64,000 nt of DNA from an uncultured Rhodospirillales bacterium (GTDB lineage: Bacteria; Pseudomonadota; Alphaproteobacteria; Acetobacterales; Acetobacteraceae), in contig CAIYSR010000052.1 in NCBI GenBank assembly GCA_903928895.1, forward strand, positions 1 to 64,000. Reading direction: 5' to 3'. The position numbers were made by a program, and so were the translations under genes. Shown here one piece after another: positions 5,743 to 64,000 of this stretch (position 1 is its first letter; each line of letters begins with the position of its first letter). The notes under the pieces are model-generated. The model was given only the letters and a program-made list of their open reading frames with translations, made no database searches and was not told the DNA's origin.

Positions 5743-6531
5743 TCAAGCGGCGAGGCGGGTAAGGGCCGCATTCAGCAGCGACGGGTCGCCCAGGGCGAGG
5801 ATATGGCCGGTACTGTCGGGCGTCAGCGGGTGGCCATGCCAGTCCGTCACGCTGCCGCCGGCGCCAGTGATCACGGGGACGATGGCGGCCCAGTCCCAGA
5901 CCTTCATGGTCGATTCGAGGATCACGTCGATCTGCCCGAGGGCCAGCAAGCCGTAGGCGTAGCAGTCGCCGCCATAGGTGGTGCGCCGGGTCGCTGCCCG
6001 GAGGCGGGACCAGGCGGGAAGGTCGGCGGCTTCGAACATTTCGGTGCTGGTGCAGGAAAGTTCGGCCGCGGCGAGGCCGGCGCAACGGCGCGTGCCGGCG
6101 GCGCCGCCGAACGGGCCGCGAAAGGTGGTGGGGCGACCGGTGACGCCGATCCAGCGCTCGCCGGTGATGGGCTGGTCGATCAGGCCCAGCACGGGAACGC
6201 CATCGGCCAGCAGCGCGATCAGGGTGCCGAAGATCGGTCGGCCGGTGATGAAGGCGCGGGTGCCGTCGATCGGGTCGAGCACCCAGCGCAGCCCGGCAGC
6301 GGGATGGTCGAGGCCGAATTCCTCGCCGAGGATGCCGTGATCGGGATGCCGTGCGGCGATCAGTGCGCGGATTGCCTGCTCGGCATTGCGATCGGCGATG
6401 GTGACCGGGCTGTCATCGGCCTTGTCATCGGCGGCCAGTCCGGCACGAAAATACGGCCGGATCACCGATCCGGCCGCGTCCGCCGCCGCGACCGCGGTGC
6501 GGATCAGCGGCTCGAGATCGGGAAGCTCCAC
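5743..6531 (-). CDS. hisN: Inositol monophosphatase family phosphatase, probable histidinol-phosphatase
   Basis: A 262-residue Mg-dependent phosphomonoesterase. The metal-binding motifs are all present: GEEFG (near residue 69), DPIDGT (near 86) and WDWAA (near 214). The GGDCYAYGLLALG stretch resembles the HisN branch of the IMPase family, which makes histidinol from histidinol phosphate. The start codon is GTG at 6531, seven bases after the stop of the cytochrome c gene, so the two are probably cotranscribed. The exact substrate (histidinol phosphate, inositol phosphate or another sugar phosphate) cannot be settled from sequence alone. Confidence 0.82.
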   Translation of the reverse strand: MELPDLEPLIRTAVAAADAAGSVIRPYFRAGLAADDKADDSPVTIADRNAEQAIRALIAARHPDHGILGEEFGLDHPAAGLRWVLDPIDGTRAFITGRPIFGTLIALLADGVPVLGLIDQPITGERWIGVTGRPTTFRGPFGGAAGTRRCAGLAAAELSCTSTEMFEAADLPAWSRLRAATRRTTYGGDCYAYGLLALGQIDVILESTMKVWDWAAIVPVITGAGGSVTDWHGHPLTPDSTGHILALGDPSLLNAALTRLAA

Positions 6532-6538
6532 CAGGAAA

Positions 6539-7072
6539 TTACGGCAGCGGGACGGGGGATTTGGACAGGCTGCGCAGATAGGCGATCACGTCGGCGCGCT
6601 GCTTGTCGCTGTTGATACCGGCGAAGGCCATCTTGGTGCCGGCGGCGAAGGCGGCGGGCTTCTTGAGCCAGGCGTTCAGTTCTTCGAAGGACCAGGGTCC
6701 AGCCTTGCCCTTGAGCCCAGCGGAGTAAGCGAACCCGGCGGCGGCGGCGCGGTCATGCCCGACGACGCCGTAGAGGTTCGGGCCGACGCCGGCTTTTCCG
6801 CCATCGGTGAAGGTGTGGCAGGCGGCGCAGAGCGCCTTGGCGCGGCTTTCGCCGGCAGCGGCATCGGCGGTGGCGAGCAGCGGACCGATGGGGGCCAGCA
6901 CCTCTGCCTTGGCGCCGGCGGCCGGGGCGGCCTCGGCCATTTCGATCTTGATGGCACTCTCGTGCAGGTGTTCGGGGCGCACGAGGCTCTGACCGATCAC
7001 CCCGCAGACGAAGAAGGTGATGCCAGCCACGAGCACGGCCGCCGTCAGCTTGTTGAACTCCATGCTATCCAT
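6539..7072 (-). CDS. Membrane-anchored c-type cytochrome (CycM-like)
   Basis: A 177-residue monoheme cytochrome c. The N-terminus (about residues 8-28) is an uncleaved hydrophobic anchor; an Ala/Glu-rich linker follows, then a class I cytochrome c domain with heme site CAACH near residue 90, GPNLYGVVG and an axial Met in GTKMAF. This matches the CycM/cytochrome c552 type that feeds electrons to terminal oxidases. Two in-frame ATGs exist (7072 and 7063); 7072 was chosen because a GGGG lies about 11 bases upstream of it. The gene is divergent from kdsB. Confidence 0.88.
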   Translation of the reverse strand: MDSMEFNKLTAAVLVAGITFFVCGVIGQSLVRPEHLHESAIKIEMAEAAPAAGAKAEVLAPIGPLLATADAAAGESRAKALCAACHTFTDGGKAGVGPNLYGVVGHDRAAAAGFAYSAGLKGKAGPWSFEELNAWLKKPAAFAAGTKMAFAGINSDKQRADVIAYLRSLSKSPVPLP

Positions 7073-7253
7073 ACGACGTATACCCCGCGCGAGATCGAAC
7101 CCAGCCCATGTGTCCCCGGCGGTCACGTTGCGCGACGCGGGCCGGGTACCTAAGGTGCGGCGCACCATAGGCAAGCCGGGCGCGGGCATCAACCCGTGGC
7201 CGTTGTTTTGTCGCATTTCGGACTGGACAGGGACCAAGAATGAGCGCGCAGGC

Positions 7254-7988
7254 ATGAACCCGATCGTTGTGATCCCTTCGCGGATGGCGGCCTCGCGGCT
7301 GCCCGGCAAGCCGCTGGCCGACATCAATGGGACCCCAATGATCGTCCATGTGCTGAACCGCGGCCGCGAGGCACAAATCGGGCCGGTGGCGGTGGCTTGC
7401 GCCGAACAGGTGATCGCCGACGCGGTGCGGGCGGCGGGCGGCGTCGCGGTGCTGACCGACCCTTCGTTGCCGCGGGGCTCGGACCGGGTTCAGGCGGCGC
7501 TCTCGGTGCTCGATCCGCACGGCACGCATGACGTGGTGGTGAACCTCCAGGGCGACCTGCCGACCATCCCACCCGAGTACATCCGTGCGGTGCTGGCGCC
7601 GCTCGCCGATCCGGCGATCGACATCGCCACGCTCGTCGCCCCCATCACGACCGAGGAGGAGGCCCATTCCCCCAGTGTCGTGAAAGCCGCCTGTGCCTTT
7701 GATGGCGGCCGCGCGGTCTCGCCGGCGCTGTATTTCTCCCGGGCCGCGATCCCCGCCGGCCCGGGCCCGCTGTGGCACCATATCGGCATCTATGCCTTCC
7801 GCCGGCAGGCCCTGGCACGGTTCGTGGCCCTGCCGGAATCGCCGCTCGAAAAGCGCGAGAGCCTCGAACAACTGCGTGCGCTGGAGGCCGGCATGCGGAT
7901 CGCGTGCGCCCGTGTCGAGCATGCCCCGTTCGGCGTCGACACTCCGGCGGACCTCGAACGTGCCCGAGTCGCCCTTCCCTCCGCTTGA
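7254..7988 (+). CDS. kdsB: 3-deoxy-manno-octulosonate cytidylyltransferase
   Basis: Cytosolic enzyme of 244 residues that activates Kdo with CTP for lipopolysaccharide core synthesis. The nucleotide-binding start IPSRMAASRLPGKPLADI, GSDRV (near residue 78), NLQGDLP (near 98) and HHIGIYAFRR (near 178) are all diagnostic. The open frame extends upstream through the divergent promoter region, but the ATG at 7254 begins the conserved domain. pheA follows after 14 bases, so they probably share a transcript. Confidence 0.95.
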   Translation: MNPIVVIPSRMAASRLPGKPLADINGTPMIVHVLNRGREAQIGPVAVACAEQVIADAVRAAGGVAVLTDPSLPRGSDRVQAALSVLDPHGTHDVVVNLQGDLPTIPPEYIRAVLAPLADPAIDIATLVAPITTEEEAHSPSVVKAACAFDGGRAVSPALYFSRAAIPAGPGPLWHHIGIYAFRRQALARFVALPESPLEKRESLEQLRALEAGMRIACARVEHAPFGVDTPADLERARVALPSA

Positions 7989-8002
7989 AGAGATCAAGAC
8001 CC

Positions 8003-8854
8003 ATGACCAAGACCATCGCTTTCCAGGGGCGGCCCGGGGCCTATTCCGACCTGTCCTGCCGCAAAGCTTATCCGGGCTGGACGACCCTGCCCTGCGACAC
8101 CTTCGATGCCGCCATGGAAGCGGTGCGCGGCGGTGCCGCCGAACTCGCCATGATCGCCTGCGAGAACAGCCTCGCCGGCCGGGTCGGCGATGTGCACTAC
8201 CTTCTGCCGGATAGCGGCCTGTACGTGGTGGGCGAGCATTTTCAGCGCGTCGAGCACTGCCTGATCGGGCTCAAGGGCGCGAGGATCGAAAACCTCAAGC
8301 GCGCCCACTCGCATGTCGTCGCTCTCGGCCAGGTCCGCAAGATCGTCAAGGAACTCGGGCTGCAGCCGATCGTCGAGGCCGACACCGCGGGGTCGGCCGA
8401 ACTGATCGCGCAATGGGGCAACCCCGAGGATTGCGCCATCGCCTCCTCGCTGGCCGCCGAGATTTTCGACCTCGAGATCCTGCGCCACAACGTCGAGGAC
8501 GCAGCGCACAACACCACGCGCTTCTACGTGATGGCTGCCAAGCCGCAGCAGCATGCTCAGGGCGAATCCGGCCTGATGACGACCTTCGTGTTCCGCGTGC
8601 GCAATGTGCCGGCGGCGCTGTACAAAGCGCTCGGCGGCTTTGCCACCAATGGCGTTAACATGACAAAGCTGGAGAGCTACATGGTCGGCGGCCACTTCGC
8701 CGCCACCCAGTTCCTCTGCGATGTGGAGGGCCATCCAGAGCAGCCCGCGCTACGCCGCGCATTGGAGGAGCTTACGTTCTTCTCCCGCGAGTGCCGCATC
8801 ATGGGCGTCTATCCGACGGCGCAGTTCCGCAAGGACCAGGACGCCGCCGATTGA
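8003..8854 (+). CDS. pheA: Prephenate dehydratase
   Basis: A 283-residue monofunctional enzyme that converts prephenate to phenylpyruvate in phenylalanine synthesis. The catalytic domain begins IAFQGRPGAYSD and contains the ENSLAGRVGD loop (near residue 52) and the NTTRFYVM motif (near 172). The C-terminal third is an ACT domain with the phenylalanine-sensing ESYMVGGHFAATQF segment, consistent with feedback inhibition. No chorismate mutase domain is fused, as is usual in alphaproteobacteria. The start is 14 bases after kdsB. Confidence 0.95.
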   Translation: MTKTIAFQGRPGAYSDLSCRKAYPGWTTLPCDTFDAAMEAVRGGAAELAMIACENSLAGRVGDVHYLLPDSGLYVVGEHFQRVEHCLIGLKGARIENLKRAHSHVVALGQVRKIVKELGLQPIVEADTAGSAELIAQWGNPEDCAIASSLAAEIFDLEILRHNVEDAAHNTTRFYVMAAKPQQHAQGESGLMTTFVFRVRNVPAALYKALGGFATNGVNMTKLESYMVGGHFAATQFLCDVEGHPEQPALRRALEELTFFSRECRIMGVYPTAQFRKDQDAAD

Positions 8855-8890
8855 AGGCCGGCGCGAAACGTAGAACGGCGAAATGCAAAA

Positions 8891-8910
8891 CGGCCGGAGT
8901 GATCCGGCCG
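8891..8910. terminator. Bidirectional terminator between pheA and tRNA-Val
   Basis: Perfect 8-base arms (8891-8898 and 8903-8910) enclose the loop gtga. On the minus strand the stem is followed by TTTTGCATTT, a good intrinsic terminator for tRNA-Val. On the plus strand it is followed by GATTTGTG and would serve pheA less strongly. Confidence 0.75.
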
Positions 8911-8927
8911 GATTTGTGTCTCGCGTA

Positions 8928-8999
8928 TGGGCGGTGACGGGATCGAACCGCCGGCCATCTCGGTGTAAACGAGACGCTCTACCGCTGAGCTAACCGCCC
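8928..8999 (-). tRNA. tRNA-Val (anticodon UAC)
   Basis: The minus strand folds as a 72-base tRNA with 7-base acceptor arms (GGGCGGT/ACCGCCC), a D-arm TAGCTCAGCGGTAGAGC, an anticodon loop TTTACAC closed by TCTCG/CGAGA, and a T-loop GGTTCGATCCC. The anticodon TAC reads valine codons. The 3' CCA is not encoded. Confidence 0.95.
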
Positions 9000-9097
9000 A
9001 CAAAGCGCGTTCGTCCGGGGTGGATGCCGGCGAACGGAGGTCATGCAGCGAGCCATTTATGTCGGCGGCATCCGGTCGCCGCCGAAGCGGCCGGTTC

Positions 9098-9370
9098 TCA
9101 GCCCAGCGCATCCTTCAGGCCTTTGCCGGCCTTGAAGCGAACCGAGGTGGTCGCTGCAATGTCGATCTCGGCGCCGGTGCGCGGATCACGGCCCTTGGAG
9201 GCTTTGCGGTGGGTGATGGCGAAGGTGCCAAAGCCGACCAGCCGCACTTCCTCCCCATCCTTCAGCGCGCCCTCGACGGCGCCGAGCACAGCCCCGACCG
9301 CTTCGGCGGCCTTGGCCTTCGGCATCTCGGTACGCGCCGCAACGGCAGCGATCAAATCCATTTTGTTCAC
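9098..9370 (-). CDS. hupB: DNA-binding protein HU
   Basis: A 90-residue nucleoid protein of exactly HU length. It begins VNKMDLIAAVAA (N-terminal helices) and has the GFGTFAITHRKASKGRDP arm region and the C-terminal FKAGKGLKDAL. The GTG at 9370 was chosen over a longer frame because AGGGGG lies 8 bases upstream and the resulting length matches the family. It lies directly downstream of lon, the usual arrangement in many proteobacteria. Confidence 0.95.
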   Translation of the reverse strand: MNKMDLIAAVAARTEMPKAKAAEAVGAVLGAVEGALKDGEEVRLVGFGTFAITHRKASKGRDPRTGAEIDIAATTSVRFKAGKGLKDALG

Positions 9371-9452
9371 GGTGAAGCCCCCTCGTGTGGTCAAGCCAGT
9401 GTTAAAGTTCGATCCTTATCGCCAATCGCGGCGGATATTACAACCGCGAGTA

Positions 9453-9482
9453 GCAGCCCGCATCCGTTTCGACGCGGGCTGC
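9453..9482 (-). terminator. Hairpin downstream of lon
   Basis: Perfect 9-base arms GCAGCCCGC (9453-9461) and GCGGGCTGC (9474-9482) with a 12-base loop sit 7 bases past the lon stop codon. No T-run follows, so it may be a rho-assisted terminator or an mRNA-stabilising stem between lon and hupB. Confidence 0.55.
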
Positions 9483-9489
9483 CATGCGT

Positions 9490-11988
9490 TCAGTGCGGCA
9501 GCGCCGAGGCGGCGCCCTCGGGCTTGGCGGGTGTGGGCTCTGCCGGCTCCACCCACTCGATCGCCTCGGGCTTGCGCACGAGGGCCTGGCTGATGACTTC
9601 GTCGACATGCGCGACGGGAATCAGCTGCAGGTGCTTCTTCACGTTGTCCGGGATCTCGGCCAGGTCCTTCTCGTTGTCCTTGGGGATGAACACCGTCTTG
9701 ATCCCTGCGCGCAGCGCCGCGAGCAGCTTTTCCTTCAGCCCCCCGATCGGCAGCACCCGGCCCCGCAGGGTGATTTCGCCGGTCATCGCGACGTCGCGGC
9801 GGACGGGGATGCCGGTGAGGATGCTGACGATGGAGGTGGCCATGGCGATACCGGCGGACGGGCCGTCCTTCGGCGTGGCGCCTTCCGGCACGTGGACATG
9901 GATATCCCGCTTTTCGAACAGGGTCGGCTTGATGCCGAAACTGATCGAGCGGCTGCGGACATAGGAGAGCGCGGCGGAGACGCTTTCCTGCATCACATCG
10001 CCGAGCTTGCCGGTGTGCTTGACGTTGCCCTTGCCCGGCAGCAGCACGCTTTCGATGGTCAGAATCTCGCCGCCGACCTCGGTCCAGGCGAGGCCGGTGA
10101 CGACACCGACCATGTCTTCCGACTCGGCCTCGCCGTAGTGGAACTTGCGTACGCCGGCGAATTTTTCGACGTTCTTGACGGTAATCGCGATCTTGCGGGT
10201 CTTGGTGGTGACGATCTCCTTGACCACCTTGCGCGCCAGATTGGCGATTTCGCGCTCGAGGTTACGCACCCCGGCCTCGCGCGTGTAGTAGCGGATCAGG
10301 TCACGCAGGGCTTCCTCGCTGACCGACCACTCGTCGGTCTTGAGGCTGTGCGCCTCGCTGACCTTGGCGACCAGATGGCGCTGGGCGATCTCGACCTTCT
10401 CGTCCTCGGTGTAGCCGGGGATGCGGATGATCTCCATGCGATCCATCAGCGGCTGTGGCATGCGCAAACTGTTGGCAGTGGTGACGAACATGACGTCAGA
10501 AAGGTCGTAGTCGACTTCGAGATAATGGTCGGCAAAGGTGCTGTTCTGCTCGGGGTCGAGCACTTCAAGCAGCGCGGAGGACGGATCACCACGCCAGTCG
10601 GCGCCGAGCTTGTCGATTTCATCGAGCAGGAACAGCGGGTTGGAGGTTTTGGCCTTTTTCATCCCCTGGACCACCTTGCCCGGCATTGAGCCGATATAGG
10701 TACGCCGGTGGCCTCGGATTTCCGCCTCGTCGCGGACGCCGCCGAGCGACATGCGGACGAAATTGCGCCCCGTCGCCCGGGCGATGGACTTGCCGAGCGA
10801 GGTTTTGCCCACGCCGGGTGGGCCCACGAGGCACAGGATCGGGCCGCGCAGCTTGTCCGAGCGCGACTGCACCGCGAGGTATTCGAGGATGCGCTCCTTG
10901 ACCTTCTCGAGGCCGTAGTGGTCGGCATCGAGCACCTTCTCGGCCTCGTTGATGTCGTTCTTGACCTTGCTGCGCTTCTTCCAAGGGATCGAAATGATCC
11001 AGTCGAGGTAGTTGCGCACGACCGTGGCTTCGGCGCTCATCGGGCTCATGCCCTTGAGCTTCTTGAGTTCGCCCATCGCCTTTTCGCGGGCTTCCTTGGA
11101 AAGCTTGGTCTTGGCGATTTTGGCTTCGAGCTCGGCGATCTCATCCTTGCCCTCCTCGCCCTCGCCCAGCTCCTTCTGGATCGCCTTCATCTGCTCGTTG
11201 AGGTAGTACTCGCGCTGCGTCTTCTCCATCTGCCGCTTGACCCGGCTGCGGATGCGCTTCTCCACCTGGAGAACGCCGATCTCGGCCTCCATGTGGCCGA
11301 AGACCTTCTCCAGACGGTCACTGATGCCGGGGACTTCGAGCAGGTCCTGCTTCTCATTGATTTTGAGATTGAGGTGGCAGGCGACCGTGTCGGCGAGCTT
11401 GGAGGGCTCCTCGATCTGGTTCAGCGAGACCAGCACCTCGGGCGCGATCTTCTTGTTGAGCTTGATGTATTGCTCGAACTGGGTGACCACCGTACGGCCG
11501 AGGGCCTCGAGCTCCTTGGGCTCGCCACCGAGATCTGGCATTTCCTCGACGAAGGCCTCGAAATGGCTCTCGGTTTCCTTGAAGTCGACAATCCGGGCCC
11601 GTCGGCTGCCTTCGACCAGTACCTTCACGGTGCCGTCGGGCAGCTTGAGGAGCTGGAGGATCGTCGAGACCGTGCCGACGCGATAGATATCGTCGATCGA
11701 AGGGTCGTCCTGCGCGGCATTCTTCTGCGCCACGAGCAGGATCTGCTTGTTGTCCTTCATCACGGCTTCGAGAGCGCGCACCGATTTCTCGCGGCCGACA
11801 AACAGCGGTACGATCATATGCGGGAAGACGACAATGTCGCGCAGCGGCAGGATTGCCATCATCTCGGCCGGTGCCAGGGTATGCGGCAGGGCCACTGCGG
11901 CCTTCGCCCGCGGCGCGCGGGCCGGTTTGGCCTTGGCGACCGGCACCGTGACGGTGATAACGGGCTTTGGCTTCTTCGGATCAGACAT
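9490..11988 (-). CDS. lon: ATP-dependent protease Lon
   Basis: An 832-residue cytosolic AAA+ serine protease that degrades misfolded and regulatory proteins. An Ala/Lys/Pro-rich extension (about 35 residues) precedes the LON substrate-binding domain ([20 protein letters not shown]). The AAA+ module has Walker [10 protein letters not shown] near residue 386 and Walker B FLLDEIDK; the protease domain has the Ser/Lys dyad in DGPSAGIA (near 706) and GGLKEKLL (near 746). GAGG lies 8 bases before the ATG. The family size is usually about 780-820 residues; the extra length is the N-terminal tail. Confidence 0.97.
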
Positions 11989-53490: not shown

Positions 53491-54906
53491 TTACTTCGGT
53501 TTAAGCGAATCAAGCGCGTCCTGCACCATCTTCCGGTCGGGGCCGCTCGCCGGCAGCAGGTCGAGCAGCCGCTGCCAGTAGCGTTGCGACTCATCGGGCC
53601 GATTGCTCTGTGCCGCCCCGACGCCGAGCAGCCACAGTGCTTCCGGGTTCTTCGGGTCGAGTGCCTCAACGCGGCGCAACAAGGCGATGGCGCGCTGCGG
53701 CACCGGCGCCTCGGGCGTCCTGCTGTCGAGCAGCGCCTGGACTTCCTGCATCGGAATTCCCGCATCGTTTGGCCGCAGCTTCGCTGCCCGGTCATACGCG
53801 TCGGCCGACTTGTCAGGCTCGTTCATCACCAGATAGGCACGAGCGATTTTGAGCCAGCCCTCGGTATCGGATGGATTGGCCTCCAGCTTGGCCGCGAGCT
53901 GGGCCACCATTCCGCTGATCATCGCGGAACGCTGCTCCGGCGTCATATTGGCTGCCGCCGCCATGGCCGCGGCATCGGGCCCGCTCGCACCCGCCGCGCC
54001 ACCGGCCGCAGGCGCGGCGGCGATCTGCTTTGGTGCCGGCGGCGGCGGAACCGGCGCGGGAAGCCCTGCCTGCTTGGCGGTATCGGCGATCCGCCGCACC
54101 ACCTCCGTGCGCAGCTCCGAGCCGTCCTCGGCATCGGCAGCGAGCTTCATCCAGGCATCGATCGCCAACCGGGGCTCCCCCGCCTGGAGATCCGCCAGCG
54201 CCAGATAGAAGCGCGACACCTGCTCCTTCGGGTCGAGCTTCACGGTCTGCGCGAAGGCCTCCCGTGCGGCCGGCGTCACGATGCCCTCGGCCGCCATCAC
54301 CAGCATTTCGCCATAGGCGGAGATGACGTCGGGCTGGTCCGGCTCGAGCGCCATCACATGCTGATAGGCATCGATCGCCACCGGCCAGCGTCCGAGCTCG
54401 GCGGTGGTGCGGGCGAACAGCAGCCAGCGCTCGGCGTTGTTCGGATCGTCCTTGAGCTTGGCCTGCAACGTCGCGGCCGCCCCTTCCAGATTGGTGTGCG
54501 GCGCCTTCTGCTCCCCCTGGGTGGTGGAGGCGACGCGCGTCGCCGCGGGCTGGTCGGGAATGCCGGGTGCGCCGAGCCAGGTATAAACGCCCCCCGCCGC
54601 GCCGATCACCAAGAGCGCCAGAACAGCCGCGAGACCGGGGCTCGCGGTCGCCCGCGCCACCGCATCCTTGCCCCGCTGCGGCGCGAGCATGCGGCGCTGG
54701 ATCTCCAGCCGCGCCGCCGCCGCCTCCTGCGGCGCGAGCAGTCCGCGCGCGATGTCGCGATCGAGCTCCTTCAACTGGTCGCGATACACCGCGAGATCAA
54801 ACTGCCCCCGCTCGGGGATCGCCCGCACACCGCGCAGCATGGGCCAGAACACCACGGCCAGCACAACAAGCGCGAGCGCAAGACAGGCAATGACAAGCGC
54901 GATCAC
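53491..54906 (-). CDS. ccmI: Cytochrome c biogenesis protein CcmI
   Basis: A 471-residue inner-membrane chaperone that holds apocytochrome c for heme attachment. Two membrane helices (residues about 3-24 and 95-115) flank a cytosolic leucine-zipper-like loop (YRDQLKELDRDIARGLL, near residue 43); a long periplasmic TPR domain follows (about 140-470) with an Ala/Pro-rich linker near 285. The GTG at 54906 overlaps the TGA of ccmH and has AGGAG 8 bases upstream. Last gene of the ccmFGHI operon. Confidence 0.92.
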   Translation of the reverse strand: MIALVIACLALALVVLAVVFWPMLRGVRAIPERGQFDLAVYRDQLKELDRDIARGLLAPQEAAAARLEIQRRMLAPQRGKDAVARATASPGLAAVLALLVIGAAGGVYTWLGAPGIPDQPAATRVASTTQGEQKAPHTNLEGAAATLQAKLKDDPNNAERWLLFARTTAELGRWPVAIDAYQHVMALEPDQPDVISAYGEMLVMAAEGIVTPAAREAFAQTVKLDPKEQVSRFYLALADLQAGEPRLAIDAWMKLAADAEDGSELRTEVVRRIADTAKQAGLPAPVPPPPAPKQIAAAPAAGGAAGASGPDAAAMAAAANMTPEQRSAMISGMVAQLAAKLEANPSDTEGWLKIARAYLVMNEPDKSADAYDRAAKLRPNDAGIPMQEVQALLDSRTPEAPVPQRAIALLRRVEALDPKNPEALWLLGVGAAQSNRPDESQRYWQRLLDLLPASGPDRKMVQDALDSLKPK

Positions 54907-55370
54907 GAATCGCTCTCCTGCATGAGCGCGGCGAGCCGCGTCTGTTCGGCCGGATCGAGAGGCGCCGCCGCAGCCGCGGCGCGGCGCTGCCGGCGGATGG
55001 TCAGCGCGATCCCGGTGCCGGCCAGTCCGAGGATCACCACCGGACTGAACCACAGCACATAGGTCGCCGGCTCCACCGGCGGATTGAGCAGCACGAACTT
55101 GCCGTAGCGCGCCACAATGAACTGCATCGCCGCCGCGTCGCTGTCGCCGGCGGTCAGCCTCTCGCGCAGCTTGAGCCGCACGTCCCGCGCCAGGTCCGCG
55201 CCCGATTCGTCGATCGATTCGTTCTGACACACCATGCAGCGCAGCCCCTTGCTGAGGGTCCGGGCGCGGGCCTCCAGCACCGGATCGGCCAGGCGCTCGT
55301 TCGGCTCCACGGCCATGGCGGGCAAGGCGAGGCTCGCGGCCAAGGCGAGCGCGGCGAGAAGCGGTCTCAC
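54903..55370 (-). CDS. ccmH: Cytochrome c maturation protein CcmH
   Basis: A 155-residue periplasm-facing membrane protein of the heme lyase complex. Signal peptide residues 1-20, redox motif LRCMVCQNESIDES (near residue 43), membrane helix about 105-125 and a short cytosolic tail. The RCxxCQN pair reduces apocytochrome thiols. The start overlaps the ccmG stop. Confidence 0.95.
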   Translation of the reverse strand: MRPLLAALALAASLALPAMAVEPNERLADPVLEARARTLSKGLRCMVCQNESIDESGADLARDVRLKLRERLTAGDSDAAAMQFIVARYGKFVLLNPPVEPATYVLWFSPVVILGLAGTGIALTIRRQRRAAAAAAPLDPAEQTRLAALMQESDS

Positions 55371-55903
55371 GAGCGGTTCAACTCCCGGAGCAGCGGCAGC
55401 AACTCCTTCTCCACTGTGTCGGCGTTGAGCGGCCCGACGAAACGCTTGCGGATATGGCCGGACTTGTCCACCACATAGGTCTCCGGCACCCCATAGACGC
55501 CGAAATCGAACCCCGCGGCCCCCTTCCGATCGACCCCGATGCGGACATAGGGATCGCCGCCCTTGGCGAGTTCGCGCTGCGAATCCTCGACCGCATCCTT
55601 ATAGGCGATGCCGATCAGCGGCAGCTTCTCCTTGGTGGCGAGCCGCATCAGCACCGGGTGCTCGATCTTGCACGGCACGCACCACGAGGCGAAGAAGTTG
55701 ATCACCGCGACCTGCCCCTTGAGCGAGGCGTTGGAGATATTCGGGCCGCCGGCCAGCGCCGGCAGGTCGAAATCCGGCAACGGCTTGTCGATCAGCGCCG
55801 AGGGCAACTCGTGCGGATCCCGGCCCGGCTGCAAGCCCAACGCGAAATAGCCGGCAATCACGAGGAACAGCAGCACCGGCAGGAGATAGAGGGTCTTGCG
55901 CAT
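55367..55903 (-). CDS. ccmG: Thiol:disulfide interchange protein CcmG (DsbE)
   Basis: A 178-residue membrane-tethered thioredoxin. N-terminal anchor residues about 4-24, then a thioredoxin fold with active site FFASWCVPCKIEHP (near residue 72) and the conserved cis-Pro segment YGVPETYVVD (near 138). It passes electrons to apocytochrome c or CcmH. The ATG at 55903 lies 5 bases after the ccmF stop; the longer frame is antiframe of ccmF. Confidence 0.95.
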   Translation of the reverse strand: MRKTLYLLPVLLFLVIAGYFALGLQPGRDPHELPSALIDKPLPDFDLPALAGGPNISNASLKGQVAVINFFASWCVPCKIEHPVLMRLATKEKLPLIGIAYKDAVEDSQRELAKGGDPYVRIGVDRKGAAGFDFGVYGVPETYVVDKSGHIRKRFVGPLNADTVEKELLPLLRELNRS

Positions 55904-55908
55904 CGAAC

Positions 55909-57888
55909 TCACTCCGCCGCCTGGGCCACGGCCGCCCCGCGTTGCCGCGCCGCCGCACCGATCCGCCAGCGCCGGTCGGACAGGCTGACGATGCCGCCTC
56001 CCGCCATGATCAACGCCCCCAGCCAGATCCACGAAATCAGCGGCTTGTGATAGGCCCGAATGGTCCAGCCGCCCTGGCCGTCCGACTCGCCCACCGCGAT
56101 ATACAGGTCGGCGAACACGCCCGAGCGGATGGCAGTCAGGCTCGTCGTCTGCTGCTGGACCTCGAAGAACCGGCGCTGCGGATGCGCCACCCAGACCAGC
56201 GCCCCGTTGCGCGTCACCTCGACGGTGGCATCCTCGGCGACGAAATTCGGCCCCGGAATCTCATCCACCTTCGCCAGCCGCATGGTGTAGCCGCCGATAT
56301 CCAGCGTCGCTCCGAGCTTGACCACCTCGATCCGCTCGACGCTGAACGCCGCCGCGGCGATGCCGGCCGCCGACACGGCCAACCCGATATGCGCCAGCGT
56401 CATGCCATAAGCCGAGCGCGGCAGATGCAGCGCCCGGCGGGCGCTCTCGCCGAGCGGAATCCGGAACAGCTTCACCCGGTCCGTCCATTCCACCACCGCC
56501 CCCATCGCGGTGAACGCCGCCAGCGCGAGCCCGAGCACGGCCAGCACCGGCCCGCCATAGGTCGCATAGAGGCAGCCGAGTCCCACAAGCAGCGCCGCCG
56601 CGAAGGCGATCCACAGCCGCTGCATCGCCCCGAGCAGGTCCCCCCGCTTCCACGCCAGCAGCGGCCCGCCGGCGACCGCGATCAGCACCGGCACCATGAT
56701 CGGCCCGAACGTGGTGTCGAAATACGGCGGCCCCACGGTGATCTTCGGCCCGCCCACCGCATCGAGGAACAGCGGATACAGCGTGCCCAGAAACACCGTG
56801 GCCGCCGCGCTGGTGAGCAGCACGTTGTTCAGCACCAACGCCCCCTCGCGCGAAATCGGCGCGAACACGCCGCCCGACTGCAACGCCGGCGCCCGCGCGG
56901 CATACAGCGACAGCGAGCCCCCGATCGCCACCAGCAGCAGCAGCAGGATGAACGTCCCGCGCGCCGGATCGACCGCAAAGGCATGCACCGAGGTCAACAC
57001 ACCCGAGCGCACCAGGAAGGTGCCGACCAGCGACAACGAAAACGTGATGATCGCGAGCAGGATCGTCCAGCTCTTCAGCGTGTCCCGCTTCTCCACGACA
57101 ATCGCCGAATGGATCAGCGCTGTCCCCACCAGCCACGGCATGAACGAGGCGTTTTCGACCGGGTCCCAGAACCACCAGCCGCCCCAGCCCAGCGTGTAGT
57201 ACGCCCACCAGCTGCCGAGCGCGATCCCGACCGTCAGCGCGCACCACGACGCCAGCGCCCACGGCCGCACCCAGCGTGCCCAGGCCGCGTCCACCCGCCC
57301 CTCGATCAGGGCCGCCACCGCGAAGGCGAACGAAACGGAGAAGCCGACATAGCCGAGGTAGAGGAACGGCGGATGGAAGGCGAGCCCGGGGTCCTGCAAC
57401 ACCGGGTTCAGCCCATGCCCGTTCATCGGCGGATTGGCCGTGCGCAGAAACGGGTTCGATGTGAACAGGATGAACAGCAGGAACCCCACGCTGATCATGC
57501 CCTGCACCGCCAGCACCCGGGCGCGCAGTTCGCGCGGCAGATTTCCGCTGAAAATTGCCACCGCGGCGCTGCACAGCGCCAGGATGAACACCCACAGCAG
57601 CATCGAGCCCTCGTGGTTCCCCCACACCCCCGACACCTTGTAGAGCAGCGGCTTGTCGGTATGGCTGTTCTGGATCACGTTGATCACCGTGAAGTCCGAC
57701 GTCACATAGGCGAAGGTCAACGCCGCCATCGCCAGCCCGACCAGCAGGAACTGCGCCAGCGCCGCCGGCCGCGCCACCGCCATCCAGGCATGATCGTGCC
57801 GCGCCGCACCGATCACCGGCACGACCGACTGCACCAGCGCCACCGCCAGCGCCAGAATCAGGGCGAAATGGCCAAGCTCGATGATCAT
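55909..57888 (-). CDS. ccmF: Heme lyase subunit CcmF
   Basis: A 659-residue polytopic membrane protein of about 14-15 helices that ligates heme to apocytochromes. The family start MIIELGHFALILALAVAL and the WWD heme-handling segment GGWWFWDPVENASFMPWL (near residue 230) are clear. First gene of ccmFGHI on the minus strand; ccmA-E are not in the window. It is divergent from the MocR-like gene of the multiheme cluster, and an inverted repeat and an FNR-type box lie in the shared upstream region. Confidence 0.96.
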   Translation of the reverse strand: MIIELGHFALILALAVALVQSVVPVIGAARHDHAWMAVARPAALAQFLLVGLAMAALTFAYVTSDFTVINVIQNSHTDKPLLYKVSGVWGNHEGSMLLWVFILALCSAAVAIFSGNLPRELRARVLAVQGMISVGFLLFILFTSNPFLRTANPPMNGHGLNPVLQDPGLAFHPPFLYLGYVGFSVSFAFAVAALIEGRVDAAWARWVRPWALASWCALTVGIALGSWWAYYTLGWGGWWFWDPVENASFMPWLVGTALIHSAIVVEKRDTLKSWTILLAIITFSLSLVGTFLVRSGVLTSVHAFAVDPARGTFILLLLLVAIGGSLSLYAARAPALQSGGVFAPISREGALVLNNVLLTSAAATVFLGTLYPLFLDAVGGPKITVGPPYFDTTFGPIMVPVLIAVAGGPLLAWKRGDLLGAMQRLWIAFAAALLVGLGCLYATYGGPVLAVLGLALAAFTAMGAVVEWTDRVKLFRIPLGESARRALHLPRSAYGMTLAHIGLAVSAAGIAAAAFSVERIEVVKLGATLDIGGYTMRLAKVDEIPGPNFVAEDATVEVTRNGALVWVAHPQRRFFEVQQQTTSLTAIRSGVFADLYIAVGESDGQGGWTIRAYHKPLISWIWLGALIMAGGGIVSLSDRRWRIGAAARQRGAAVAQAAE

Positions 57889-58136: not shown

Positions 58137-59567
58137 ATGTTGATCCCCCTGAAACTGGTTCGAGGACAACCTCTGCAGCAGCAGCTGTACGACCAGCTGC
58201 GCGCCTTGATCGCGACGGGCCGTCTGCAGCCCGGTGCGCGCATGCCGTCCACCCGGATGCTGGCCGAGCAGTTCGCGATCTCCCGCATCACCGTCATCCT
58301 CACCTATGAACGCCTGGTCGCCGAGGGCGTACTCTATACTCTGCCGGCGGCTGGAACCTTCGTCGGCGCGCTGCCCTGCGCCCTCGGGCAATGTGCGCAG
58401 GGCGCCGCCGGCACCGCCATCGGCGATCCGGGGCGCCGCGACGCCGGCCCCGTCGGGTTGCCCGACGCCGAGTTGTTTCCCGCCAATCGCTGGCGCGCCG
58501 CCCTGCGCCATGCCCTGGATCGCGTCGGGCCGCGCCCGCCCGAGCAGAGCCCCGCCGGCGCGCTCGCGCTGCGCGCCGCGATCAGCGGCTGGCTCGCCGC
58601 CACCAGGGGCCTCAATGTTGCCGCGGATCAGATCCTGATCCTGAGCGGCCGGCGCCGGGCGCTCGACATGGTGGCCCAGCTCCTGCGCCCCTCCGGCCGC
58701 GCCGCCGTCCTCGAGGCGCCCTGCGACCCCACCGTCGCCGCCGCCTATGCGTCCGCCGGCGCCCGGCTTGTCCATGTCCCCGTCGATGGCGACGGCATGC
58801 GCACCGCCCGCCTGCCCGATGAGCCCGCGGCCCTCGTCCATGTCACCTCCGGGCATCAGACGCCCCTCGGCGGCATCCTCACGCCGCCGCGCCGGGAGCG
58901 CCTCCTCCGCTGGGCCGAACGGGCCGACGCCATCATCGTCGAGGAGGACCAGGATGCCGACCTGCGCACCGACGCCGCCGTGGTGCCGCCGCTCGCCGCG
59001 GGACCCGGGGCGCCGCGGGTGATTTACATCGGCGGTCTCGCCGCGACCATGGCGCCCTGGTTGCAGCTCGCCTTCATCGTCCTGCCGCCCGCCTTGGTCG
59101 CCCAGGCCACAGCTTCCAGCCGAGGGCTCGACGAACACGCCGCCTGGCTCGAGGAAGCGGCGCTGGCCGAATTCATCGAAGGCGGCGCCTTCGCCCGCCA
59201 TGTCCATCGCGCCCGCAAGACCTACGCCGCCCGGCGCCATGCCCTGGCCGAGGCCCGGCTGCTGCATCTGCCCGAGGTCCGGCTGTTCGGCGCCGACACC
59301 GGGCTGCACCAGGCCTGGCTGTTGCCCGAGGACCACGGACAACCCGCCGCCTTCGTCGACGCCGCCCGTCGCGCCGGCCTCATCGCGGCCACAATCGGCC
59401 CGGCACCCGGCGCCAGCGGCGTGCCGCTGGAACGCCTGGTGCTGATCGACGCCGCCCGTATCGACGAAGCCCGCCTCGACGCGGCCCTGCGCGCGCTCGC
59501 CGTCGCGGTCCGCCCCGTGCGCTGGCCGGATGGGCTGGAGCCGATGCTCGGCGTGGCCGCGGACTGA
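58137..59567 (+). CDS. MocR/GntR-family regulator with a degenerate aminotransferase domain
   Basis: A 476-residue regulator. Residues about 1-75 are a GntR winged helix (LYDQLRALIATGRLQPGARM, then AEQFAISRITVILTYERL). The rest follows a fold-type I aminotransferase, but the PLP lysine in the usual GTFSK motif is Ala303 (YIGGLAATMAP) and the PLP-contacting Tyr of the EDDYD motif is Gln272 (EEDQD). PLP binding as an internal aldimine is therefore unlikely. The ATG begins the conserved N-terminus. It lies 301 bases before the multiheme genes on the same strand and is a candidate for their regulator. Confidence 0.88.
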   Translation: MLIPLKLVRGQPLQQQLYDQLRALIATGRLQPGARMPSTRMLAEQFAISRITVILTYERLVAEGVLYTLPAAGTFVGALPCALGQCAQGAAGTAIGDPGRRDAGPVGLPDAELFPANRWRAALRHALDRVGPRPPEQSPAGALALRAAISGWLAATRGLNVAADQILILSGRRRALDMVAQLLRPSGRAAVLEAPCDPTVAAAYASAGARLVHVPVDGDGMRTARLPDEPAALVHVTSGHQTPLGGILTPPRRERLLRWAERADAIIVEEDQDADLRTDAAVVPPLAAGPGAPRVIYIGGLAATMAPWLQLAFIVLPPALVAQATASSRGLDEHAAWLEEAALAEFIEGGAFARHVHRARKTYAARRHALAEARLLHLPEVRLFGADTGLHQAWLLPEDHGQPAAFVDAARRAGLIAATIGPAPGASGVPLERLVLIDAARIDEARLDAALRALAVAVRPVRWPDGLEPMLGVAAD

Positions 59568-59868
59568 TGGCCACCCGGGTTGCAGCCGTGTCAGTCTATC
59601 TGCCTCCGGCATTACCCGACGGTTATGCGCCCCGCCCGATGGGGCAGTTTTCGTTGAGATTAAGGTGTCCCAGCCTCCCCGTGGTGGACTGGTCCTATGA
59701 ATTTCCGTTAATCCTGGGCCTACAAGGTTTTCCCGTTCGCGCCGAGTATCCGGCACGATGAAGCAGCAAAGGAGTCGAGCTGCAGCTTTTGCGCGTGTCT
59801 GACACGGCGTGGGATCCCCACCCCGCATTGCCAGCCCGGCAAGGCCAGGTTCGACGGAAGTAGGTCAA
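59568..59868. other. Intergenic region before the multiheme cluster
   Basis: This 301-base gap presumably carries the promoter of the cytochrome genes. I see no open frame of note, no convincing FNR box and no strong terminator. AAGTAGG lies about 7 bases before the ATG at 59869. It is AT-richer than its surroundings around 59648-59730. Confidence 0.35.
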
Positions 59869-60501
59869 ATGCCTGAGAACAATCGTCGCGATGCCCTCTT
59901 CTGCAACCGGATCAAGCACTGGTTTGCGCTGCTGCGGGAGCACTGGCGCATCGCGGTCGCCATGGTCGGCTGCATGTTCGTCGGCGTCGGCGCCTTCGCC
60001 ACCTGGCAGACCATCATCGAATCAACCAACCACACCGAATTCTGCATCACCTGCCATGTGATGCGCGACACCGTCTATCAGGATTACCTCAAGTCATCGC
60101 ATTACAAGAACAAGTTCGGCGTCCATGTCGGCTGCCCCGATTGCCACGTGCCGATCTACAGCTGGATCGACGAAGCGCTGGAAAAGGTCGGCACCGTCGG
60201 TGAGCTCTACGCCTTCTTCGTCCGCGGCATCACCACCGCCGAGGCGTTCGAGCCCGAGAAGCCCAAGCTGGTCAAGCACACCTGGGAAAAATTCGCCCGC
60301 ACCAATGCCCGCGAATGCCGTCACTGCCACGACTACAACAACATGATTTCCGAAGAGCAGAAGCCGAGCGCCCGCGTCTCCCATGCGGATGCTTCGAAGG
60401 TCAACCGCAACTGCGTCGAATGCCACAAGGGCATTACCCACCGGCTCCCGGCTGGCGTGCTGCCGGCCGCCGCCACCACTGACAGTTTCGATGTCGAGTA
60501 A
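59869..60501 (+). CDS. Tetraheme NapC/NirT/CymA-family cytochrome c
   Basis: A 210-residue membrane-anchored quinol dehydrogenase. One N-terminal helix (about residues 25-47, VAMVGCMFVGVGAFATW) is followed by a periplasmic domain with four CxxCH sites: CITCH (near 60), CPDCH (near 89), CRHCH (near 150) and CVECH (near 183). The NapC/NirT pattern, including HVMRDTVYQDYLKSSHYKN after the first heme, is clear. It would take electrons from quinol and pass them to the downstream cytochromes. The ATG at 59869 gives the usual short cytosolic start. Confidence 0.93.
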   Translation: MPENNRRDALFCNRIKHWFALLREHWRIAVAMVGCMFVGVGAFATWQTIIESTNHTEFCITCHVMRDTVYQDYLKSSHYKNKFGVHVGCPDCHVPIYSWIDEALEKVGTVGELYAFFVRGITTAEAFEPEKPKLVKHTWEKFARTNARECRHCHDYNNMISEEQKPSARVSHADASKVNRNCVECHKGITHRLPAGVLPAAATTDSFDVE

Positions 60502-60514
60502 AGGAAGCGATGCG

Positions 60515-61501
60515 ATGATGACCCGCAATTTCTACCGGATGCCGACGTTCGTGATTCCCGCCTTGGCCGCATTGCTGGCGGCCGGCTCGGCCCACGCAGC
60601 GGTCGACTGGGCGAGCGTGCCGGGCAAAGACGTGGCGCTGTTCTATCCCGGCCAGTCCTCCTACGAATGGGCGCTCACCGCCGGCGACATGTCGGGCGCC
60701 ACCGCCTTCCGCACCGAGGGCAAGGACTGCGCCGCCTGCCATATCGGCGAAGAGAAGGACATGGGCGAGCACACGGTGGTCAACAAGGCCCGCACCTTCA
60801 AGACCGGCGAGAAGCCCTCGATCGAACCCACCCCCATCGCCGGCAAGCCCGGCTCGATCCCGGCCACCGTCAAATTCGCCAACGACGGCACCAACCTGAT
60901 GGTCCATATCGACTTCAAGGAGGGCACCCAGCCCGACGCCAAGCAGGACCCCGCCTTCGCCACCAAGGTGACGGTGATGTTCAGCGCCTCCAAGGTGCCG
61001 CAGTTCAACCGCATGGGCTGCTGGTCCGCCTGCCATGACGACGCCGCCTCGATGGCGAGCGCCGCTGGCGCCGCCCGCACCAAGTATCTCCCCAACACCC
61101 ATGCCAAGCTCAGCCGCCAGGGCGGCGGTGACGCCCTCAAGCCCGCCGCCGAACTCGCCGCGATGAAGGCCGACGGCTACTTCCTCGAATATTGGCAGGC
61201 CCGCGTGAACCCGGGCGCCCCCGCCCAGGCCGCCGCCGGCACCGTCTTCGACAAGCGCACCGAGACCAAGCCGAGCCCGGTGACCGCCGAGGCGACCTTC
61301 GCCAACGGCACCTGGTCGGTCACCCTGACCCGCAAACTGGCCGGCGGTGCCGACGCGATCAGCTTCGCGCCCGGCGGCAAATACCAGGTCGGCATCGCCA
61401 TCCACGCCGGCCACACCGCGCAGCGTTTCCACTATGTCTCGTTCGAGCGCTCGCTCGTGCTCGACAGCGGTGCCGCCGACTTCGTGGCGGTGAAGAAATG
61501 A
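60515..61501 (+). CDS. Ethylbenzene dehydrogenase-like heme-binding cytochrome
   Basis: A 328-residue periplasmic protein. Signal peptide residues about 1-26 (ending AHAA). It has one CAACH heme site (C72) and an unusual CWSACH, a CX3CH motif (C169), within NRMGCWSACHDDAASM. The overall fold resembles the EB_dh/cytochrome c-552-DMSO reductase heme-binding family, whose members relay electrons. AAGGA lies 9 bases before the ATG. It sits between the tetraheme and decaheme genes and probably shuttles electrons between them. Confidence 0.83.
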   Translation: MMTRNFYRMPTFVIPALAALLAAGSAHAAVDWASVPGKDVALFYPGQSSYEWALTAGDMSGATAFRTEGKDCAACHIGEEKDMGEHTVVNKARTFKTGEKPSIEPTPIAGKPGSIPATVKFANDGTNLMVHIDFKEGTQPDAKQDPAFATKVTVMFSASKVPQFNRMGCWSACHDDAASMASAAGAARTKYLPNTHAKLSRQGGGDALKPAAELAAMKADGYFLEYWQARVNPGAPAQAAAGTVFDKRTETKPSPVTAEATFANGTWSVTLTRKLAGGADAISFAPGGKYQVGIAIHAGHTAQRFHYVSFERSLVLDSGAADFVAVKK

Positions 61502-61535
61502 GACATTCTAATTCTCCGAGAGAGGGAGCAGAAAC

Positions 61536-62465
61536 ATGAGGAAGCATTTCATCCTCGGGTTGCTGGCCGCCGTGTTCTGTGCCTTCGTGGGCAGCGCGGC
61601 ATCGGCCCAGACGCCGGCGAATTTCGCCGGTGGCGGTGCCGAAACCTGCCTGAAGTGTCACAATGACGCCAAGGTCAACCCGATCCTTCAGACCCCGCAC
61701 GCGATGAAGGGCGACCAGCACACGCCCTTCGCCCAGCAGGGATGTGAATCTTGCCACGGCCCCAGCGCGGCGCACGTGCAGAGCCGGCAGAACCCGCCGG
61801 AAGTGGTCTTCAAGGGCAAGAACATCTCGCCCGTGAAAGAGCGCAACGAGGTCTGCCTCACCTGCCACCAGTCCGGCCTGCGCATGAACTGGCAGGGCAG
61901 CAAGCATGACGCCAACGACGCCGCCTGCACCAACTGCCATCAGACCCATGTCCACAAGGACCCGGTGCTGGTCAAGCAGACCCAGGCCGAGAAATGCTTC
62001 ACCTGCCATTCCGAGCAGCGCTCGCAGATCTTCCGCTTCTCGCACCATCCGGTGCGCGAGGGCAAAGTCACCTGCTCCGACTGCCACAACCCGCATGGCT
62101 CGCCCGGTCCGAAACTGCTCAAGGAAGTGACCGTCAACGAGACCTGCTACAACTGCCATGCCGAGAAGCGCGGCCCGCTCGCGTGGGAGCATCAGCCGGT
62201 TCGCGAGAACTGCCTGACCTGCCACAACCCGCACGGTTCCAACCAGCCTCGCCTGCTGATCCAGCGTTCGCCGTATCTTTGCCAGGAATGCCACTCCAAC
62301 TCGGGCCACCAGGCCAATCCGCAGAGTGGCCAGCAGCTTCCGGGCAAGACCAACTTCAACGGCACGATCGGCATCAACTTCCGCGCCTTCTCGCGCGGTT
62401 GCGTGACCTGCCACTCGCAAATCCACGGGTCGAACAGCCCCGGCGGTATGTGGTTCACACGGTAG
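61536..62465 (+). CDS. Decaheme c-type cytochrome, DmsE/MtrA/PioA family
   Basis: A 309-residue exported cytochrome. Signal peptide residues 1-25, then ten CxxCH motifs: CLKCH, CESCH, CLTCH, CTNCH, CFTCH, CSDCH, CYNCH, CLTCH, CQECH and CVTCH. Number and spacing fit the MtrA/DmsE family, in which the heme wire sits inside the MtrB barrel and crosses the outer membrane. GGGAG precedes the ATG. The porin gene follows 14 bases later. Length (309) is near that of MtrA/DmsE (about 330) rather than the longer PioA. Confidence 0.94.
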   Translation: MRKHFILGLLAAVFCAFVGSAASAQTPANFAGGGAETCLKCHNDAKVNPILQTPHAMKGDQHTPFAQQGCESCHGPSAAHVQSRQNPPEVVFKGKNISPVKERNEVCLTCHQSGLRMNWQGSKHDANDAACTNCHQTHVHKDPVLVKQTQAEKCFTCHSEQRSQIFRFSHHPVREGKVTCSDCHNPHGSPGPKLLKEVTVNETCYNCHAEKRGPLAWEHQPVRENCLTCHNPHGSNQPRLLIQRSPYLCQECHSNSGHQANPQSGQQLPGKTNFNGTIGINFRAFSRGCVTCHSQIHGSNSPGGMWFTR

Positions 62466-62479
62466 AAGGGAGGAAGCGG

Positions 62480-64000
62480 ACATGAACACCATGCGTTCGC
62501 TCAGGGCCATCGCCCTGGCCGGGAGCTGCCTTCTGCCCATCGCGGCGGCAGCCGATGACTTCGACGTGGCGGATGCACCCGCCAATGCGGTGCAGGTCAC
62601 GCCCACCCACAACGGGATCACCATCCTTCCGCTGCCGGTTCCGGCGACTTCGTCCGGGCCGCTGCAGAACGAGGTGATCATTGGCGGCGGCTGGCAGAGC
62701 AACACCGGCATCCGCTACGGCCGGTTCACCGGGCTCGCCAAGGACGGGCTCTTCGGCCTCGGCGGCTTCACCTTCCGCGGCGGCTACAAGTGGGACTCCG
62801 ACGACGCCAGCTACTATCAGGCGCAGGCGACCGATCTCGGGCTCGACTCGCGGTCGTTCTCCCTCAAGCTGGGCAACCAGGGCACCTGGGGCATCAACTT
62901 CGGCTATGACGGCATCCCGGACTACTACTCCAACTCGTTCCACTCGGTCTGGGGCACCGGCGGCGGCCTGCTGAACGGCATCCAGCCGGGCAGCATCACC
63001 AACGCGACCACCCAGCTCACCGGGCAGATCGCGGTGATGGATGTCTTCACCAGGCGCGACATCTTCAGCGGCGGTGGCAAGTATCAGGTCGGCGACTGGA
63101 CGGTGGCCGCCCAGCTCCGCCACGAGCACAAGGAAGGCATCAAGGAGAATTCGCTCGCGATCCTTTCCGCGCCCTCCCCGCTGCTCGGCAACACCAACGT
63201 CACCTCCAGCGCGCTCGGGTATTTCCCCGAGCCGATCAACTACGACACCGATCGCTACGACATCTCCGCGCAGTACAACGGCGGCAAACTGCAAGGCCTC
63301 GTCGGCTACACCTACCACAAGTTCACCGACAACTCCTCGACCTGGAACGGGGTCAACCCGTTCGTCTTCACCGGTGCCAACGTGACCGGCGTTGCCGGGA
63401 CCGCCGGGGCCGGCTCCGCCCTGATTTCGAGCCGCTACTCGCTGCCGCCGTCGAACTCGGCCCATCAGTTGAAAGCCCAGCTCGGCTACAACTTCACGCC
63501 CACCATGCGGGTCAATGCCAACCTGCAATACGGCCTGATGCTGCAGAACGATCCCTACCCCTCGACCACCGGCAGCCCCTATCTCGCGGCCCTGCCGCTG
63601 CCGAAATCGAGCCTCGACGGTGCGGTGCAGACCATGCACGGCAACATCGCCCTGACCGCCCAGCCGATCGAAAAGTCGGACCTGCGGGTCAGCTACACCG
63701 TGGATGACCGGCACAGCATCACCGACCGCAACGCCTACACCCAGTGGTACCTGGATGCACTGAACAAGAAGTACACCGCCTACAACATGCCATTGAACTA
63801 CAACCATCAGACCTTCGATGTGCAGCTCGGCTACAAGGTGATGCCGCAGACCAAGGTGTCGGTCGGTTACGCCTATGACTCCACCGTGCGCAACGACACC
63901 GCCACCCGCGAGGTGACGCAGAACACGGTCAACGCCAAGGTCCGTACCAACCTGTTCACCGATGCCTACGGCTCGGTGTCCTTCCTCCACGAGGAGCGCA
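62480..64000 (+). CDS. MtrB/PioB-family outer-membrane porin (partial, runs off the window)
   Basis: At least 507 codons remain open from the ATG at 62480 to the window edge. Signal peptide residues about 1-24 (MNTMRSLRAIALAGSCLLPI), then alternating aromatic/polar beta-strand sequence (GIRYGRFTGL, FTFRGGYKWD, YQVGDWTVAAQLRHEHKEG, GYTYHKFTDNSS) typical of the MtrB/PioB decaheme-associated barrel. GGGAGGAAGCGGAC precedes the start. It would insulate the decaheme cytochrome across the outer membrane. No cysteine is present in the mature part seen, so the N-terminal CxxC of Shewanella MtrB is absent. The 3' end lies outside the window. Confidence 0.9.

Follow-up and report, generated by a model that had tools for sequence, protein, structure and literature searches.

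Could electrons pass between the quinone pool and the outside of an Acetobacteraceae-like bacterium through a conduit encoded at a single locus? This question is raised by a stretch of 64,000 nucleotides from an uncultured Rhodospirillales bacterium (assembly GCA_903928895.1, contig CAIYSR010000052.1, positions 1 to 64,000; hereafter called the window), at the end of which genes for a NapC-family cytochrome, an EB_dh protein, a decaheme cytochrome MtrA and a porin MtrB are all carried by one strand (59869-64000). This four-gene operon probably forms a trans-envelope conduit, in which electrons would run from the quinone pool through the NapC-family protein, a NirB-like cytochrome (the EB_dh protein) and MtrA in MtrB to the outside. 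The reading rests on gene content, completeness, linkage, homology and fold; the localisation, heme number, electron path and partner contacts that go with it are predictions. The genome comprises 5.57 Mb in 191 contigs with an estimated completeness of 100%, and the window lies on a contig of 70,107 bases.

The four genes

The four consecutive same-strand genes named in a preliminary description of the window, which had been made from the sequence alone, were all recovered by profile searches, and they are separated by gaps of 13-34 bases. The first (59869..60501, + strand) encodes a tetraheme cytochrome with a predicted N-terminal membrane anchor. Its hydrophobic N-terminal stretch (recognised by reading), four CXXCH motifs and match to PF03264 (Cytochrom_NNT, 4.6e-50) place it in the NapC/NirT family, in agreement with the NapC-like quinol enzyme described before, and it is a putative quinol/quinone oxidoreductase. 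It scored below the cut-off of the curated NapC/NirT subfamily TIGR02161 (159.4 vs 310.6 bits), and in the family tree this NapC type lay on a long divergent branch, as a 100/100 clade apart from NirT, NapC and Mto-linked relatives. The second gene (60515..61501, + strand; PF09459, EB_dh, 5.5e-32) encodes an EB_dh-fold cytochrome with a signal peptide, predicted to be periplasmic.

The third gene (61536..62465, + strand) encodes an MtrA/MtoA-type cytochrome of 309 amino acids with a signal peptide and ten CXXCH motifs, the first of them at residue 38. It matched TIGR03508 (DmsE/MtrA family) at 2.2e-94 (315.7 bits vs a cut-off of 192.2) and the solved MtrAB complex 6r2q (6r2q_A) at 9e-81; it thus groups with MtrA, and the grouping with unrelated soluble cytochromes that would have spoken against a decaheme MtrA-type protein was not seen. 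A plasmid search for MtrA gave distant relatives only, the best of them in a record without annotation. The fourth gene encodes an MtrB/PioB-type outer-membrane porin (62482..64000 in the window, + strand; PF11854, MtrB_PioB, 4.7e-123; TIGR03509, 409 bits vs a cut-off of 240; 6r2q, 3.7e-25). Truncation, which would have undermined the porin, was not found, as the gene is complete on the contig (774 amino acids, end at 64806) and is cut by the window edge alone. The structure 6R2Q is the MtrAB complex of S. baltica (PMC10654088), and its chain is oddly named in the file of the Protein Data Bank. With a decaheme cytochrome and an adjoining complete porin, the locus belongs to the MtrAB/MtoAB/PioAB porin-cytochrome family.

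The conduit had been described as running from quinone to surface. The part from the quinone to the outer membrane stood, and the surface part did not, as no surface cytochrome gene follows. A look for MtrC/OmcA, DmsAB or PioC genes past position 64000 had been suggested; none is present there, and mtrB is followed by a convergent DUF3108 gene. Reading of the contig upstream and downstream of the conduit gave no surface cytochrome or DmsAB gene, no match to PF22113 (the MtrC/MtrF domain) was obtained at 1e-3 in the genome, and no PioC gene was found in 53-70 kb of the contig (the whole genome was not searched for it). The long heme-free N-terminal extension of the PioA type, which is reported for Rhodopseudomonas and is rare elsewhere (PMC10654088), is absent from MtrA.

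Probable NirB-type identity of the EB_dh protein

The EB_dh protein (328 residues) had been described as standing in the place of a simple periplasmic shuttle. Its family assignment was sustained, and the protein is better read as a NirB-type diheme cytochrome, since a CXXCH motif at residues 72-76 is accompanied by a CX3CH motif at residues 169-174 that the earlier description lacked. C72, C75, H76, C169, C173, H174, H297 and H306, and also M155, were invariant in 15 homologues. Both motifs co-occurred in each of the 35 intact homologues that were examined, and divergent membrane-anchored relatives were without both; this joint occurrence and joint loss fits two covalent hemes, which we infer at CXXCH and CX3CH. 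When the confident core of the AlphaFold model was compared with known structures, EbdC (2ivf_C; Z 15.1, 182 residues, 3.4 A) and NXR-C (7b04_C; Z 13.8, 180 residues, 3.1 A) clearly exceeded the next matches, and the protein therefore has the EB_dh-type fold of NirB. An attempt to assign axial ligands by matching M155/H306 to the Met/Lys pair found in EbdC and NXR-C was given up, because the profile alignment is not residue-precise.

In other Pseudomonadota, EB_dh relatives are fused to, or adjoin, a NapC-type tetraheme domain directly beside cd1 nitrite reductase. In the published naming NirT is a tetraheme and NirB a diheme cytochrome, with a fused NirTB in Halomonas (PMC13086519), and the EB_dh gene Psest_0817 of P. 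stutzeri RCH2 showed the same fitness change under metal stress as nirS and nirF (PMC5554334). We therefore interpret the EB_dh protein as a diheme cytochrome of the NirB type, a class already known to work with NapC/NirT. NirB corresponds to cytochrome c-552; what it does in Rhodocyclus, which is without nitrite reductase, has been noted as an open question (PMC8954225). In denitrifiers NirB is encoded with nirS and nirT; here a NapC-family gene adjoins, and no match to cd1 nitrite reductase (NirS) was found in the genome. The PF02239 matches in other carriers were weak, short pieces of about 100 positions.

At two further loci (L063, 8573-12262; L068, 6840-10492) the genes for a NapC-type and a NirB-like cytochrome stand together with those for flavocytochrome c sulfide dehydrogenase and a diheme cytochrome, which suggests that the same pair is used there in sulfide oxidation.

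Conservation and phylogeny of the cassette

The EB_dh cytochrome was found in 10 of 200 genomes of the same family, each copy adjoining mtrA. The closest named contigs belonged to metagenome-assembled genomes (MAGs) of Acetobacteraceae and Rhodospirillales, as expected from the earlier impression of an Acetobacteraceae-like genome, together with one alpha- and one gammaproteobacterial MAG. A tree was built from sequences collected by searches with the EB_dh sequence alone, so that they had not been picked for MtrAB linkage. In it the MtrAB-adjacent copies formed one clade (100/98) of 19 members from Alpha- and Gammaproteobacteria, 18 of them MtrAB-linked, and the EB_dh proteins linked to NirS or to flavocytochrome c sulfide dehydrogenase fell outside. 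The MtrAB/NirB-type pairing is thus a conserved cassette in many genomes and no peculiarity of this one.

The MtrA proteins of the EB_dh loci did not form a single clade, and those of Acetobacteraceae did (100/98); this tree was labelled by neighbouring genes, its MtrA, PioA, MtoA and DmsE references being identified by context only. Among 20 further MtrB loci sampled in the phylum an EB_dh gene was found at none, and a putative surface cytochrome with 8-10 hemes stood beside mtrB/mtrA at 17. A gammaproteobacterial MAG (L024) encodes both an OmcA/MtrC-like cytochrome and an EB_dh protein. Separately, an Acetobacteraceae genome (G014; L033, 8572-15988) carries two tandem mtrAB pairs without an EB_dh gene.

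EB_dh-MtrA-MtrB is the constant part of the cassette, and the adjoining quinone enzyme is one of two NapC types, a cytochrome b561, or none nearby. The two NapC types of the Acetobacteraceae loci were well separated in the family tree, each as its own 100/100 clade, and a cytochrome b561 gene lies nearby instead of NapC at an alpha- and a gammaproteobacterial locus (L023 and L062, respectively). Because the quinone enzyme varies while the other three parts are constant, the NirB-like protein appears as the constant adaptor to MtrAB. We lean towards the view that a dedicated NirB-like diheme subfamily serves as the periplasmic adaptor of one MtrAB branch in Alpha- and Gammaproteobacteria, with interchangeable quinone enzymes (the two NapC types and cytochrome b561). 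At L062 a gene for a methyl-accepting chemotaxis protein stands directly upstream of EB_dh-mtrA-mtrB on the same strand (9869-11509), possibly for electron-acceptor taxis.

Proposed mechanism and direction of electron flow

In the proposed mechanism the membrane-anchored NapC-family cytochrome would exchange electrons with the quinone pool (probably ubiquinone), the NirB-type EB_dh-fold cytochrome would carry them across the periplasm, and the decaheme MtrA inside the MtrB barrel would pass them through the outer membrane. Without MtrC/OmcA, contact with the partner would be made by the outermost heme of MtrA itself, as has been suggested for MtoAB and PioAB. The NirB-like protein would be the dedicated adaptor of MtrAB and the quinone enzyme exchangeable. 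A periplasmic adaptor has a precedent in Sideroxydans, since the same job is done there by PmcA, a small low-potential cytochrome between ImoA and MtoA (the order of interaction is ImoA, PmcA, MtoA; PMC13390432).

The preliminary description had assigned no direction of electron flow, and this caution was justified. Export of electrons, with Fe(III) or humic quinones of anoxic water as acceptors, has a slight edge over their import from Fe(II) or reduced humics, because genes for autotrophy or phototrophy are lacking in this genome and because quinol is oxidised in vivo by members of the NapC family, among them ImoA of an Fe(II)-oxidising bacterium (PMC9600427). One related MAG with 'Anoxic' in its title also supports export.

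Electron uptake, in which the same parts and path would run inward from Fe(II) or reduced humics to ubiquinone, as proposed for MtoAB of Sideroxydans and PioAB of photoferrotrophs, falls a little short of an even chance. The conduit is without MtrC, likewise MtoAB and PioAB; among the ten carriers of the EB_dh cassette, reaction-centre genes and genuine RuBisCO were found in three each; and the NapC-EB_dh pair beside flavocytochrome c sulfide dehydrogenase in two genomes is an electron-donating context. No menD above the cut-off was found in any Acetobacteraceae carrier (in the window's genome MenD reached 68 vs 244 bits, the futalosine route not having been tested), which is like Sideroxydans lithotrophicus ES-1, reported to be ubiquinone-only. 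The window's genome, however, had no match to a photosynthetic reaction centre and no genuine RuBisCO, with a weak partial match only (9.5e-21), so that a use driven by light or by the Calvin cycle is improbable in this case, and photoferrotrophy was rejected for its organism by the missing reaction-centre match. The quinol oxidation in vivo by NapC-family proteins, including ImoA, also argues against uptake.

Several points weigh against the proposed mechanism or its outward direction. The menD result suggests ubiquinone, with which export to low-potential acceptors would be less easy, and so speaks against outward flow. The second heme of the EB_dh protein is putative, and the AlphaFold model is modest (mean predicted local distance difference test, pLDDT, 62.8), with low values near both heme motifs. 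NapC is not beside the cassette at three loci (L019, L027 and L032), and a 'complete conduit' is therefore not a fixed property. In one member of the MtrAB-linked clade (L174) a molybdenum hydroxylase takes the place of MtrAB as neighbour. At this last locus (5944-10596, G606) EB_dh and NapC are encoded with a xanthine-dehydrogenase-type pair (MoCoBD and 2Fe-2S proteins), and a periplasmic hydroxylase is possibly feeding the same cytochrome pair.

It is very improbable that the NapC-family and NirB-like cytochromes are a functionless leftover of a denitrification cluster beside mtrAB. NirTB pairs do belong to nirS clusters in denitrifiers, but the window's genome gave no NirS match, by which this reading was rejected; the MtrAB-adjacent copies also form a clade of their own apart from the NirS-linked ones, and the linkage is kept over many genera and two classes. 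A role of the EB_dh protein as heme-b gamma subunit in a type II dimethyl sulfoxide (DMSO)-reductase-like molybdoenzyme, with its gene beside mtrAB by chance, is scarcely credible and was rejected, since its EB_dh domain and its fold scores to EbdC and NXR-C are set against a TIGR03477 score of 28.2 bits (cut-off 169.85), c-type heme motifs, no adjoining alpha or beta subunit genes and conservation with mtrAB in many genomes.

Neighbouring genes

The candidate regulator is a MocR-like gene (GntR and aminotransferase-like; 58137..59567, + strand; PF00392, 4.7e-15), the start of which was inferred from homologues; its product scored 310 bits against the PdxR-like NF052282 (cut-off 320). Genes for cytochrome c maturation (CcmF, CcmG-like, CcmH-like and CcmI-like; 53491..57888, - strand) adjoin the regulator and supply heme attachment from outside the operon; CcmF was identified by PF16327 (5.4e-110) and the others from their translations. 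A homologue of the regulator adjoins the cassette in 12 other genomes or contigs of relatives, and a CcmF gene does so in eight, which indicates a stable position of the locus in the family. A MocR-family regulator, kept here across Acetobacteraceae genera, would be unusual for extracellular electron transfer.

Terminator-like hairpins were located 3' of the regulator gene and 5' of the operon (59629..59645, + strand) and about 20 bases past mtrB (contig 64828-64853, 11 pairs); both are consensus matches, whose number was close to the shuffle expectation. With hairpins on either side and the convergent, unrelated DUF3108 gene thereafter, the operon appears to consist of only these four genes. 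Beyond the window, a reading frame on the minus strand (contig 68241-69350) runs across 19 tandem copies of a 24-base unit and encodes a Ser-His-Ala-Thr-Thr-Pro-rich repeat protein.

Significance and comparison with known systems

MtrAB-type extracellular electron transfer is extended by this locus to an Acetobacteraceae group with freshwater metagenome-assembled relatives, as judged by record titles. The sample names of these relatives are taken by us to denote stratified or humic lakes. For other lineages, an enrichment of porin-cytochrome genes has been reported from a humic bog (PMC6344600). Two modules studied separately, NirT-NirB of denitrification and MtrAB, are now linked. If the proposal is true, it would assign a role to NirB-type cytochromes of bacteria that have no nitrite reductase, a gap pointed out for Rhodocyclus (PMC8954225). 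Each part is known; the joining of a NirB-type adaptor to MtrAB is a new element within the literature searched, where no paper joining MtrAB with EB_dh or NirB was found (most subscription journals being outside reach), and to that extent the preliminary view that the combination is not a described system holds.

Among known systems, DmsEFAB differs in having the DmsAB molybdoenzyme encoded with its conduit. In Shewanella MtrCAB with CymA, MtrA and MtrB are homologous to those described here (6r2q) and a NapC-family quinol oxidase is likewise present; CctA and FccA serve as periplasmic carriers in that system, MtrC/OmcA is absent here, and the present MtrA fell outside the MtrC-linked groups sampled. 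PioABC of Rhodopseudomonas palustris also comes from an alphaproteobacterium and has an MtrAB-type pair but no surface cytochrome; in contrast to it, PioC, the N-terminal extension of MtrA and reaction-centre genes are all lacking from the present locus and genome, and NapC and a NirB-like protein are present.

In Sideroxydans lithotrophicus ES-1 (MtoAB with ImoA and PmcA/MtoD) there are likewise an MtrAB-type pair without MtrC, an inner-membrane protein of the NapC/NirT family, a periplasmic go-between in the cluster and no menaquinone genes found. The go-between of ES-1 is a small monoheme cytochrome, whereas the corresponding protein here has 328 residues, the EB_dh fold and two heme motifs, and the present NapC is of a divergent subfamily, different from that of ES-1. 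NirT-NirB of the nirSTBM cluster (Pseudomonas stutzeri and relatives) shares with the present locus a tetraheme NapC/NirT protein and an EB_dh cytochrome (diheme in NirB and, by prediction, here), adjoining or fused, and the presumed delivery of electrons from quinol to the periplasm; its acceptor is the periplasmic cd1 nitrite reductase, whereas here electrons would pass to outer-membrane MtrA, and the proposed adaptor falls in a clade of its own.

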